From: Pseudanabaena sp. Chao 1811
GTDB taxonomy: Bacteria; Cyanobacteriota; Cyanobacteriia; Pseudanabaenales; Pseudanabaenaceae
NCBI RefSeq assembly: GCF_027942295.1
Contig: NZ_CP101416.1
Span: forward strand, 1 to 64,000
Direction of reading: 5' to 3'
Length of the DNA stretch: 64,000 bases
In this document: one piece after another, positions 7,803 through 58,751 of the stretch
Layout: the number at the start of each line of letters is the position of its first letter
Numbering within the stretch: the first letter of the stretch is position 1
Made by a program: the position numbers and the translations under genes
The notes under the pieces: model-generated
Database searches by the model: none
What the model saw: the letters and a program-made list of their open reading frames with translations, nothing else
What the model was told of the DNA's origin: nothing

Positions 7803-10800
7803 CTATCCTTCAGAAATCAATAAAAAGCGAATATGCTCCATACTCTGCTCAGTACGCAGGGATTGTACCTGTTGAGCCAGCTTAGTGCTAGCAATAATGA
7901 TGTCTGGTTGCAATGCCAGCACATTAGCCCGTAAATCATCGGTAGGAGAAATAGTCAAGGGGATAAAGCCTTGATTTTGGAGCATTTCCACTAACAAACT
8001 AATCGAAACAAAGTTATCATCAACCACCAAAATCCGTTTGCCTGTAGATGTTTTGCTGGTCAATAGCAAATCAACTTCTCGTAATAAGATTGCCATATCA
8101 ACGGGCTTCGTTACATAGCTATCAATTCCGAGACGTAAGCCTCGATTCTTATCATCAATCACAGACACGATAATAATTGGGATGTTGATTGTAACAGGAT
8201 CGGACTTGAGAATGGAAGCAACATCATAGCCAGTGATGCCCTGCATAATGATATCAAGGGTAATCAGATCAGGACGAACTTCACGTACCTTAGTAATTGC
8301 TTCTTGACCATTCTCTGCTTCGTAGATTACATATCCCTTTGCCTCTAGCTCCTGTCTGAGTAGACTCCGAATGCTGGGATCATCGTCAATGACCAAGATT
8401 TTTTTGCCTGTTCCCTCCGTAAGATGTTCTTCGGGTTGAGGCTCTAACATCACACGTTTTTTCAGTTGCTCAATCAGAATATCAAAATTAATTGAGGGAA
8501 TTTGGGCTTTATTTTCTACTTCCGTATTTTTAGCGACGGGAATACTAAAAGAGAAGGTGCTGCCCTTACCAAGTTCACTCTCTACCCAAATCTTACCGCC
8601 ATGATGCTCAATAATTTCCCTAGAAATTGGCAACCCTAAGCCTGTGCCTTGAGGTTTGTCGGTAAGTGTGTCCCCAACCTGTTTAAACTTCTCAAAGACC
8701 TTAGGTTGATCGGATTCAGAAATGCCAACACCTTGATCGACAACACTGACTATAATTGATTGATTTTCTTGAACAACTCGACAGGTAACACTACCTTGTT
8801 CAGTAAATTTCACTGCATTAGAGATCAAATTGATGACAACTTGGATCAGACGATCCTTGTCGCCATTGATATTTGCTAAATTTTCTGCAATTTCGCGAAC
8901 TGGGCTTAAACCTTTTTGCTCAAATAATGCTGAAGTTGCGGAAAATGCCCGGTCGATCACTTCTGTAATAGAGATAATATCCATATTCCATTGCATTTTG
9001 CCAGCTTCTATTTTGGCAACATCTAGGACTTCGTTAATTAATTTCGTAAGTCGGGTTCCCTCGGAGACAATGATTTCAATATTTTCTGTGACTTGACGTA
9101 CACTTCTCTTGACTTTCTTATCATCGGTTTGGATTAATGGAAAGATGGATTCATCAAGTTTCTTTTGAATTAATTTGGCAAAACCTAGTACAGAGGTAAG
9201 TGGAGTTCTCAGTTCATGGGATACCGTTGAGATGAAGTCCGTCTTCATACGATCTACTTCTTTCTCCGCCGTAATATCACGAATCAAGATGACAGTACCT
9301 AGATAATTTATCCCTAATGTAGATACCTCCTCTGGTACTTCAGCTTCCTCATCGTTAGCAGTTGCCTTAACTCCACCACTTCGGACTACATCGCCAAACC
9401 AAGCCGATCCCTCAACTTCCCTAAAGATAGAAGTTGCAACAGCTTTGCCTATGCGGCGATCGGGTAGTGCAAACTCAGCGCTAAAAACTTGTCTCGGGTT
9501 TTCTCTAGTGCTAGCGATGATATTAGCGATTTCCTCTCCTTTAAAGATCTCTTTGTAATTCTCGGAGTTAGAGATCGCTTTACTACTAACCCCAATCATG
9601 CCAGCGATCGCAGGGTTAAATTGGGTAATCTGATCCTCGCCATCAACTACTACCAAGCCATCAACCATGTTGTCGATAATTGCCTTGATCTCACTAGTAC
9701 GCTGTTCAACCTTCTGCTCTAGGGTACGGCTATAGTCCGCGAGCTGTTCCCCTGAAGCTTTCAGTTGCGATGTCATTTGATTAAACGCGATCGCCAAAAT
9801 GCCAATCTCATCTTCAGTCAACACAGGTGCTTGCGAATTCAAATTGCCACCAGAGACTTGGTTTGCCGCATCAGCAATCGCCAAAATCGGCTGGGAAATG
9901 CGACGGGCAATTAAATATACAGCCGTTAACAAAATACCTGCGGAACTCAGTCCAATCAGCAAAATATCCCGTGCGAGGCGATCAGCAGGTTCAAAAGCTT
10001 CGGACTGTGATATTTCCGCAAGTAACGCGAGATTGAGATTGTCAATCCAGATAAAGCTTCCTAAGACAGGAACATTTTTATAGTTACGATACAAACCTTC
10101 CCCATCTTTGCCTAGAGCCGCAGCCGTAATTCCTTCACTTTTAATATCTTTAGAGAGTTCCTGACTATCTGCTCCTCCCCCTGACAGTAAAATATTTTTG
10201 GAAGCTAACCTTCCCACCACATAAGTTTCACCACTATTACCCAAACCCGTGTTTTTGCGAATAATATCATCGACCCCTTGGAGATCGAGATCAACCGCCA
10301 CAACACCAATGCGATCGCCTGCTTTGTTAGATAAAGGTGCAGCAAAGGTCATCGCCGCTTTGCCAGAAATAGGCGAAATATAAAAGTTAGGCACAATCAC
10401 ACGGGACTGGTCGCGGGTAAAGTAAGTGGTTGTATTACCAAGGGGCTGATATTTTCCTTCTTTCTGTTTATCGGTGGAAACAATCGTAATCCCGTTATTG
10501 GTAAGAATTGAAATTTGGCGAATATTCGATTTTACTAAGGATATATCCGCCATAAACTTGCGTATCGATTCGATCGCCGTTTTATATTCTGGTGATTCGC
10601 GATCTTTGGTAAAAGCGATTTCAGAATTGATCAGCAAGTCTGGCAACTGGGTCATCAAAATCACGTCCCGACGTTGATTGTCAACCCATTGATTAACCTG
10701 AGATTCCTTAAGAGATGTGGCAACATCTAAACGATCAATAGCTGAACGCCTGAGAGCTTCGCGACTACGAACATTGGCACTAACCGCCACTAGGAGAACG

Positions 10801-56021: not shown

Positions 56022-56285
56022 CTTGATTACCTTATTACAGTTTCTCTAGAATTTTTTTAGCTATTTATCCTAAATGATAACGCGATCGCCTAAACAAGTG
56101 TCAGTAATTTAGCAGTTTGATTGATGATGGTAATAGGGATGAGACACTCTGAAAATCTGTCTACTTAAGAACATTCAGTCTGGATTATACGCTTTTGTAT
56201 TGTCTAGATATATTGATAAGAGTAAACTAGTCATAAGATTATTATGTAAAAGTCCTTGGACTTAAGTGGCAAAAGTGAAATATAC

Positions 56286-57962
56286 ATGACAAGAAAGCAT
56301 CCTACCGAGCTAACTATAAAACGTCTTTTCAGTCGTTCTGGTAATCGTTGTGCTTTTCCAGATTGCAATCAAATAATTGCTACGGATGAAGGACATTTAG
56401 TAGGCGAAGTATGCCATATTGAGGCTGCGTCAAAAGGTGGTGAGAGGTATAATCCTCAGCAGTCTGAAGATGAAAGAGCTTCTTTCGAGAATCTTATAAT
56501 ACTGTGTCGTAATCATCATGCTGTTACTAATGACACCGTAAAGTATACGGTTGACGTTCTTAGAAAAATGAAAGCCGATCATGAGGTTAAGTTTTCTCGG
56601 CAATCTTATGAGGTTCCGCAAAACATTTTGAGTGAAGCCATAGCTCAATATAACGAAACTATTAATAGAGTTGAAGAAAATACTGAAGAGATACTCGCAA
56701 TCAATAGAAAGTTGCTAGAAAAAATAGAAAGTGGAAAATTTTTAGTACAAACTGAACAAGAGGTATTACTTCCTAATATAGCAATCGCAAAAATTTTAAG
56801 AAAAGCAGAAGCTGAAAATCATGGCATCAAATTTTCTATTAGCAATTTAGATACTGATGGAAATGTAACCATCAAACTTATCCCAACACCTGAAGCTGAC
56901 AATCTTAATATTGGTAAAGTTATATTTCCTAACACACAAGCAGGACAGTCTGGAAAAATAAAATTTATTTCAGCAATGGAGAAAGGAGAAAGTGTACATC
57001 TTGAAGCAGATGAATATATATGGGAGTCAAGCATAACTTTCCCAGTTATTGGAAACCCTCCTTTACAGTCAGGAGGGTTGTCTTTTTCAAGAGAGATTCC
57101 AAATATTACAATTCCAGTTCGATTAGAGATAGCACCAGAAGGACAATCTCCAGTAGCTGTTAATATGACTAACATGACGATCATTCGCTTCGGCACGCAA
57201 GAAGTTGAATTTCTTCTTAAAGGCGGACAGCTTATAGGGGAAATGACATTAGTATCTAATTTAAAGAGTGACAAGACAATTCTTACTTATACAGGTGTCT
57301 ATCCATCTACAATAAATGCTGTTCAAGCAAAGAAAAGTTACTTAATGCACTCTGCTTTTTTACGTGAATCAAATTTTAAAATCATTTCGCTTGAAAATGA
57401 AAAAATTATCCTAGAGGATTTAGGTAGTGAGATCAATTCAAATCTTAATACAGATTATTTTGATAAAGCTATAAGGTTTCTTGATATTCTCATTAAAATC
57501 AACCAAGAACTTGGAATTGATCTTAGACTTCCAGAATCCATAGATCCAGATACATTCAGTAGTGCCTTATACCTTGAAAATGTATTTGCAAATGGGAAGT
57601 TGTTTGAATCTCGTAGAGGAGAAGTATCTTACACTTATGAAAAATCTAAAGCCTTTAGCTTTATAGAGGTAATGAAGGATATGTATTCCGTAGAAACAAA
57701 ATCTTCGCAAACTTTACGGATGCGACATGAAGTGTCTTTTGACTTCCTTGAACAAAAAATTTTTCTTGGAGAAGCTATATTGATTTTCACAAATGTTTTA
57801 CTTGCTAAATCTATACAAGAAATTGAACAAGAAATTAGTTTGCTGTCTGATGGCGAAGAGATTGATATTTTAATAAAATATGATAAAGCAATAAGATATT
57901 TCCCTAAATGGTTTTCTGATAAGAATGATGAGTATGCAGAAATGGTAATACAACAGTTATGA
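56286..57962 (+). CDS. HNH-nuclease-domain protein with large uncharacterised C-terminus
   Basis: From the ATG at 56286 (a TTG at 56256 is in frame but unlikely) the product has 558 residues. Residues 20-80 form an HNH finger: C22 and C27 (CAFPDC), H44 in CHIEAA, the N of FENLIIL and C74-x2-H77-H78 in CRNHH. A coiled-coil linker (about 110-150) leads to a beta-rich middle (about 175-320) and a helical C-terminus (about 395-558) that I do not recognise. The gene has no HIP1 octamer and is AT-rich, unlike most neighbours, suggesting transfer. Its TGA overlaps the ATG of the next gene (ATGA), so it is coupled to the toxin-antitoxin pair. A defence role is inferred from architecture and context. 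Confidence 0.8.
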   Translation: MTRKHPTELTIKRLFSRSGNRCAFPDCNQIIATDEGHLVGEVCHIEAASKGGERYNPQQSEDERASFENLIILCRNHHAVTNDTVKYTVDVLRKMKADHEVKFSRQSYEVPQNILSEAIAQYNETINRVEENTEEILAINRKLLEKIESGKFLVQTEQEVLLPNIAIAKILRKAEAENHGIKFSISNLDTDGNVTIKLIPTPEADNLNIGKVIFPNTQAGQSGKIKFISAMEKGESVHLEADEYIWESSITFPVIGNPPLQSGGLSFSREIPNITIPVRLEIAPEGQSPVAVNMTNMTIIRFGTQEVEFLLKGGQLIGEMTLVSNLKSDKTILTYTGVYPSTINAVQAKKSYLMHSAFLRESNFKIISLENEKIILEDLGSEINSNLNTDYFDKAIRFLDILIKINQELGIDLRLPESIDPDTFSSALYLENVFANGKLFESRRGEVSYTYEKSKAFSFIEVMKDMYSVETKSSQTLRMRHEVSFDFLEQKIFLGEAILIFTNVLLAKSIQEIEQEISLLSDGEEIDILIKYDKAIRYFPKWFSDKNDEYAEMVIQQL

Positions 57963-58174
57963 AACCCACAGTTATATATCTTCCTCAAGAAACCGAACAA
58001 GTCCTTGAGCGACTTTCTGTTCAAGGAGGCAAAACACCTTCGGAAATTATTCAAGAAGCAATCCAACTTTATGTTGTGAACAAGAAAAAGACATTGCCTA
58101 AATGCGTTGGCATGGGTAAAAGTGGCATCTCCGATCTCTCTGAAAGAGTTGATGAACTGCTTTGGAAAGAATGA
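57959..58174 (+). CDS. Ribbon-helix-helix (CopG-like) antitoxin
   Basis: The 71-residue protein starts KPTVIYLPQETEQVLERLS and continues GGKTPSEIIQEAIQLY, a strand-helix-helix pattern of CopG-type DNA-binding antitoxins. The C-terminal tail (GMGKSGISDLSERVDELLW) is of the kind that wraps around a PIN toxin. Its start overlaps the HNH stop by 4 bases and its stop overlaps the PIN toxin start by 4 bases. It probably represses the operon and neutralises the toxin. Confidence 0.88.
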   Translation: MKPTVIYLPQETEQVLERLSVQGGKTPSEIIQEAIQLYVVNKKKTLPKCVGMGKSGISDLSERVDELLWKE

Positions 58175-58581
58175 TTAGAGTTATTGCTGATACTGGCGCA
58201 ATCATTGCCCTACTTGACGAAGACGACAAACACCATGCCGCAGTTGTTGAAGTCGCTCAATCCTTTGATCTGCTGATTCCTGTTACAGTTCTACCCGAAG
58301 TAGACTACTTAGTTACAAAATATCTTGGTGAAGCAGTTGTCAGATCTTTTCTAGAGGCAATGACAGAGGGCGCATTTATCTATTTACCGATAGAGATTGA
58401 AGAAATTCGGCGCACTACAGAAATTATGGCTCGATATTCTGATATTCCGATTGGCTTTGTTGATGCTAGTTTGGTAGCCCTTGCCGAAAGTCATAATATT
58501 CATAAGATTTTGACCTTAGATCGCCGCCACTTTAATATTATTAGACCTGAAGGAATCGACTACTTAGAGCTATTGCCGTAA
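58171..58581 (+). CDS. vapC: VapC-type PIN-domain toxin
   Basis: The 136-residue PIN-domain ribonuclease has the acidic residues D7 (IADTGAI), E43 (LPEVDYL), D98 (GFVDASL) and D117 (LTLDRRHF), which fit a metal-dependent active site. The frame could also open at 58162, but MIRVIADTG at 58171 gives an ATGA overlap with the antitoxin stop, so I chose it. VapC toxins cut tRNA or rRNA and are held inactive by the partner antitoxin. It ends the HNH operon. Confidence 0.9.
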   Translation: MIRVIADTGAIIALLDEDDKHHAAVVEVAQSFDLLIPVTVLPEVDYLVTKYLGEAVVRSFLEAMTEGAFIYLPIEIEEIRRTTEIMARYSDIPIGFVDASLVALAESHNIHKILTLDRRHFNIIRPEGIDYLELLP

Positions 58582-58751
58582 TCTAGAAAGACAATCATAG
58601 GTAAAGCTTTACATCATCTGGACGATCGCTATCAATACTTTCGTTAAACCATTGTCAAGTCATTTCAGCATCTACCGCAATTACGCCTAGCGATCGCTAT
58701 AAAAGCTATAAAATATTGCAGCAATCAGATCGATTAGATACTTAATTTCCT

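Follow-up and report, generated by a model that had tools for sequence, protein, structure and literature searches.

A predicted HNH nuclease with an unnamed C-terminal module precedes a VapBC-like pair in Pseudanabaena sp. Chao 1811

In the 64,000-nucleotide stretch of the Pseudanabaena sp. Chao 1811 genome analysed here (contig NZ_CP101416.1, positions 1 to 64,000; hereafter the window), a gene for an HNH-finger protein overlaps a toxin–antitoxin (TA) pair. On balance, we favour the reading that this gene codes for a nuclease of the defence type that carries a new regulatory module, and that it was acquired in front of a VapBC-like pair already resident there, whose role would at most be that of a retention tail. 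The reading was built from sequence comparison, namely from the gene structure, the domain homologies, the swapping of N-terminal domains, the replacement of a gene in the slot before the pair and the repeated occurrence of the antitoxin downstream of other defence genes. Within the reach of our searches, two elements are new: the unnamed module, which is joined to differing N-terminal domains, and a series in which copies of a single antitoxin follow many different upstream genes.

Gene structure and the HNH domain

The three genes lie on the + strand and are joined by two ATGA overlaps, as an earlier note on this DNA had described. The first (56286–57962) encodes the HNH protein of 558 aa from an ATG start. 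An alternative in-frame TTG was present at 56256; the ATG is supported because the profile of the phage-defence candidate PDC-M68A (PADLOC) aligned from residue 1 (profile positions 1–158 to residues 1–153). The protein consists of an HNH nuclease domain (residues 1–110; 56286–56615), a helical linker that is probably a coiled coil (residues 111–159; 56616–56762), as read from the sequence and largely included in the PDC-M68A match, and a C-terminal module (residues 160–549; 56763–57932). The stop codon of the HNH gene overlaps the start of the antitoxin gene (57959–58174, 71 aa) at 57959–57962, and the antitoxin stop overlaps the start of the PIN-domain toxin gene (58171–58581, 136 aa) at 58171–58174. 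The low GC content of the HNH gene that the same note had pointed out was confirmed (33.8%, compared with an overall 42.1% in the window), a value as low as this being reached by just 0.5% of segments of that length. A terminator-like hairpin at 57054–57079 was discarded, as it did not exceed chance expectation. Past the PIN stop codon, approximately 69 bases (58580–58648) recur with 83–87% identity in several genomes without the full pair, and these are perhaps a remnant or a small repeat.

The residues of the HNH motif were all in place on reading the sequence (C22/C27, H44, N69, C74 and H77/H78). The Pfam model HNH_2 gave an E-value of 0.008, under the Pfam cut-off. The HNH-finger identity proposed earlier was nevertheless firm, since the domain matched the defence-effector profiles of PADLOC (PDC-M68A, 3e-28; SduA, 2e-21, residues 3–106; SAVED_HNH, 9.7e-20, residues 1–104) and solved HNH proteins in the PDB (phmmer: 9om4, E 1.8e-12; 8ysq; 7rwm; 7rwk). 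These matches support the predicted assignment of the gene to the defence-effector type. The match to the HNH part of Cap5 could suggest a variant of this CBASS effector that answers a cyclic nucleotide. Such a variant is very improbable, since PADLOC found no SAVED domain beyond residue 104 and no CD-NTase was recognised by eye among the ORFs at 53.0–61.5 kb. The HNH domain was 59% identical to that of a Caulobacter plasmid protein, the rest of which is unrelated to the C-terminal module.

A shared C-terminal module

The earlier note could not assign the roughly 400 residues that follow the linker. It was right in that residues 160–558 were covered by no model in Pfam, NCBIfam or PADLOC, but these residues do contain a real module that is shared with five cyanobacterial relatives. 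One relative was found in genome G027 by a search of the order, and four more by a profile search of 390 Cyanobacteriia genomes, so that the module occurs in six of the 390, the window protein included. Pseudanabaena sp. lw0831 encodes the same 636-aa module protein as G027. Residues 160–549 aligned with all five relatives (blastp E 1e-30 to 1e-62), with 28 alignment columns identical across the six proteins, and the modules of the relatives were 26–33% identical to that of the window protein. Given 59% identity to the Caulobacter protein in the HNH domain and just 26–33% to the cyanobacterial relatives in the module, the window protein appears to be a domain-shuffled fusion. A scan of genome contigs with two degenerate patterns returned only the known relative, and searches of plasmid, phage and viral-contig collections yielded no module relatives at the sensitivity used. 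Several matches were rejected: a group of pattern matches and a match in G203 (L012) were attributed to chance, and PDB profile matches to antibodies to noise. An AlphaFold model built from two sequences was too poor for use, and its PDB fold search was discarded because the mean pLDDT was 46.

The N-terminal partner of the module varies. It is a Mrr_cat nuclease domain in four genomes (G027, G447, G512 and G589), an NNH1 domain (NACHT-N-terminal helical domain, E 8.6e-13) in G539 and the HNH domain in the window. We take the module to be regulatory, probably with a sensing role. A housekeeping role for the C-terminal region, which would have told against the interpretation in the earlier note, does not agree, as far as tested, with a module that occurs in few genomes and is joined to differing N-terminal domains. 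No library gave a name to the module. The sole lead was a weak match of the AbiGii toxin family (PF16873; 122 residues, E 1.7e-4) in two of the module proteins, whose best score of 20.7 bits fell short of the cut-off (25). The best PF16873 match across 242 cyanobacterial genomes was a module protein, and the window protein itself had no match to this model.

Among modification-dependent restriction enzymes, nucleases of the HNH and the Mrr type are both typical. Since both were found on the module, we considered whether the HNH protein is a type IV-like enzyme of this kind, with the C-terminal module reading modified DNA. We regard this as unlikely, because Pfam found no known modification-reader domain in any member and no nuclease is recognisable in the protein with NNH1.

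Module proteins and toxin–antitoxin genes

The C-terminus of the G539 module protein (QALTDIQQGLDEVNVGQTRPVEDFAQEMQQKYDISS) resembles the C-termini of antitoxins encoded beside homologous RelE/ParE toxins. The last 17 nt of its gene (L130:823–3055) overlap a RelE/ParE toxin ORF, with the same overlap as in an antitoxin–toxin pair of Acidisarcina. By this likeness, the G539 protein looks like a module fused to an antitoxin tail, and a direct coupling of the module to a toxin is possible. No overlapping downstream TA gene was found for three of the Mrr versions (wide flanks) or for the G027 version. Overall, an RHH–VapC pair was absent downstream in five of the six module proteins, and a coupled TA gene of any kind in four. 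The neighbourhood survey therefore gave a mixed answer to the question whether homologues of the HNH protein are repeatedly associated with TA genes or nearly always unlinked to them: most were uncoupled, but the G539 version is fused to an antitoxin-like tail next to ParE.

The antitoxin and the PIN toxin

The toxin gene was clearly identified (PF01850, 54.5 bits, E 2e-14), and the acidic residues D7, E43, D98 and D117 were all present on reading its sequence. Its orthologues are 98% identical in G022 and 93% in G031. The ribbon-helix-helix (RHH) nature proposed for the antitoxin was less clear from Pfam, as RHH_1 (14.9 bits, E 0.03) and RH3_dom (19.6 bits) both scored under the cut-off. It was in line with matches to PHROG families of Arc/CopG repressors, and homologous antitoxins with a PIN gene directly downstream were found in other cyanobacterial genera. 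We refer to the pair as VapBC-like, with predicted TA activity.

Replacement of a gene before the resident pair

The window and genome G022 were 92% identical (blastn) up to position 56134 and again from 57959 onwards. Between these points, in place of the window segment 56135–57958, G022 carries 1883 unrelated bases with the ORF of a Ser/Thr kinase-HEAT gene (L097), between the same flanks and before a pair that is 92% identical. The HNH gene was missing from all sampled relatives. The comparison indicates that the HNH gene took the place of a different gene in a variable slot before the resident pair, and that the pair is older than the HNH gene at this locus and has other partners elsewhere. 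In G011 (L100:4670–7177), the same neighbours on the left and right enclose a hybrid histidine kinase gene, which lies on the opposite strand, and a TA pair is missing from this slot.

Recent acquisition had earlier been proposed from the AT-richness of the HNH gene and from its lack of the HIP1 octamer. Acquisition was borne out by the replacement in G022, but the HIP1 argument is weak, because only 2.8 octamers would be expected in the gene (none found; P of none = 0.06) and longer HIP1-free gaps of 3.4 and 2.8 kb exist elsewhere in the window. Judged by sequence, the replacement is the stronger proof.

Copies of the antitoxin behind other genes

Copies of the antitoxin gene with 86–92% DNA identity were found in eight other genomes, making nine with that of the window. 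On the same strand, they lie behind an RT_UG14 gene (G010, G011 and G028), a long Argonaute gene (pAgo; G018), a DUF262 gene with a HEPN-like partner, similar to NsnA/PD-T4-2_A (G027), HicAB, near which a type IIG enzyme is encoded (G020), the Ser/Thr kinase-HEAT gene (G022) or a 37-bp remnant of the start of an Argonaute gene (pAgo stub; G031). Homology among the nine copies always begins at the start codon (TTATG, TCATG or ATATG), and the 300 bp before the ATG are alike within the UG14 trio only. We suggest that the replacements end exactly at this codon because damage to the antitoxin in the presence of the toxin would be lethal. Of the nine genomes, three have an intact toxin gene (that of the window, G022 and G031) and G028 has a frameshifted one, while the remaining five have lost it or keep a degenerate version; addiction would thus not persist.

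A defence gene recognised by PADLOC was located directly upstream of six of the nine copies, compared with two of the 25 control VapC loci from the same order (Fisher p 0.0014). The difference was retained without the window copy (5/8 versus 2/25, Fisher p 0.004) and with partners collapsed to kinds (3/5 versus 2/25, p 0.02). The tally leaves out the kinase, as the PADLOC kinase models are very general, and the defence calls depend on PADLOC. The copies are not independent, as three share UG14 and four lie beside gyrA, and the 25 control loci were tallied by eye on short flanks, so that the enrichment is no more than suggestive. Elsewhere in the cyanobacteria, most homologous pairs stand alone, and about two of 16 follow a restriction or DISARM-type gene.

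Some observations concern the surroundings of these copies. The region upstream of gyrA in G020, G027, G010 and G018 (L103, L131, L132 and L133) is a variable slot with the same antitoxin. It contains HicAB, HigBA-like genes, a UG14 reverse transcriptase, Argonaute or the DUF262 and HEPN pair, and is likely a Pseudanabaena defence hotspot. A type IIG restriction-modification gene in G020 (L103:7408–11571) is seemingly split by an inserted VapBC-like pair (9153–9784). Near the G031 copy there is an ORF (L098:357–1031) for an AHJR-like restriction endonuclease (PF18743). In G492 (L154:503–1441), a homologous RHH–VapC pair starts 56 bp after a DISARM-type methyltransferase gene.

Linkage between the nuclease gene and the pair

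A nuclease gene and a TA pair might merely share an insertion hotspot in a defence island, without a functional link, and the ATGA would then be just the tight junction that the replacement produced. Cyanobacteria have many TA genes (69 loci in Synechocystis 6803; PMC4963859), and TA genes cluster with defence genes. Such a coincidence would also fit the four of six module proteins that have no coupled TA gene, the frequent loss of the toxin and the two control VapC loci that also lie directly behind a defence gene. It would not account for the excess of defence genes immediately before this antitoxin or for the start-codon boundary of homology in all nine copies, and we consider it possible but less than probable.

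The opposite view is that of a true composite, in which the HNH protein controls the antitoxin or the toxin via its module, and sensing triggers both DNA cleavage and the VapC RNase. The ATGA overlap at the window locus fits this view, as does the G539 protein with its antitoxin-like tail and a ParE overlap like that of an ordinary antitoxin–toxin pair. There is also a precedent in Microcystis, in which a caspase homologue encoded beside a TA pair cleaves the antitoxin of that pair (PMC7935541). However, the antitoxin has eight other upstream contexts, in eight genomes and without the HNH gene, and the module mostly occurs without a coupled TA gene. The composite defence locus put forward in the earlier note thus found no support as a dedicated three-gene system, and we judge a true composite to be decidedly unlikely.

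A broader proposal would be that cyanobacteria have an undescribed control module which combines with different effectors (HNH, Mrr, NNH1) as well as with TA modules (the G539 tail, and RHH–VapC here), so that one sensor governs both nuclease and toxin, together with a promoterless antitoxin–toxin tail behind swapped, unrelated single-gene defence systems. We hold this to be quite unlikely.

Under the favoured reading of an acquired nuclease gene before a resident pair, the HNH protein would be a single-protein effector composed of HNH nuclease, helical linker and a regulatory module of approximately 390 residues. The module may keep the nuclease inactive until an infection cue or ligand frees it to cut DNA, either that of the invader or, in an abortive response, that of the host. 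The ATGA overlaps would tie expression of the antitoxin and toxin to translation of the upstream gene. As the antitoxin start overlaps the HNH stop, the supply of antitoxin probably depends on that translation. The pair could then act as an addiction tail that penalises the loss of any defence gene in the slot. Stabilisation of the HNH gene by the pair, the other possibility raised earlier, is plausible in view of the repeated finding of this antitoxin after defence genes that are interchangeable, but the loss of the toxin in five of nine copies weakens it.

If this reading is right, an unnamed regulatory module would be added to the toolkit of defence effectors. The nine close antitoxin copies with different upstream genes would form a natural series on the long-debated retention of defence genes by TA pairs, and the G539 fusion would allow a test of whether a protein of the defence type controls a toxin directly.

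Comparison with known systems

The window protein shares with Cap5, the HNH-SAVED effector of CBASS (7rwk/7rwm), an N-terminal HNH domain of the same family and a C-terminal regulatory part, but this part is not SAVED by any model. It resembles PDC-M68A in HNH domain and linker, while profile positions after 158 (of 253) were left unmatched, so that the match is not end to end. The likeness to HNH-bearing SduA (Shedu) variants is confined to the HNH part, and the DUF4263 of Shedu was unmatched. The likeness to the AbiGii toxin family, seen in two module relatives alone and under the curated cut-off, is a lead and not an assignment. The window protein is, by these profile comparisons, neither Cap5 nor Shedu, nor a full PDC-M68A, nor AbiGii by curated score. 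Nucleases of the Lamassu LmuA-type/Mrr kind occupy the N-terminus before the same module in the four Mrr_cat versions, whereas the window protein has HNH instead; the module lies outside the LmuA model.

The pair resembles VapBC modules in its small upstream antitoxin overlapping a PIN toxin with four acidic residues, and in a pairing kept in distant genomes. It differs in its position behind interchangeable upstream genes and in the frequent loss of the toxin. TA modules that guard or stabilise defence or other gene cassettes are known from CreTA (PMC9458426, PMC10097628) and from Synechocystis cassettes (PMC4963859). CreTA is an RNA TA module repressed by Cascade, whereas the linkage in the window is operonic and protein-based, and the gene that would be guarded varies.
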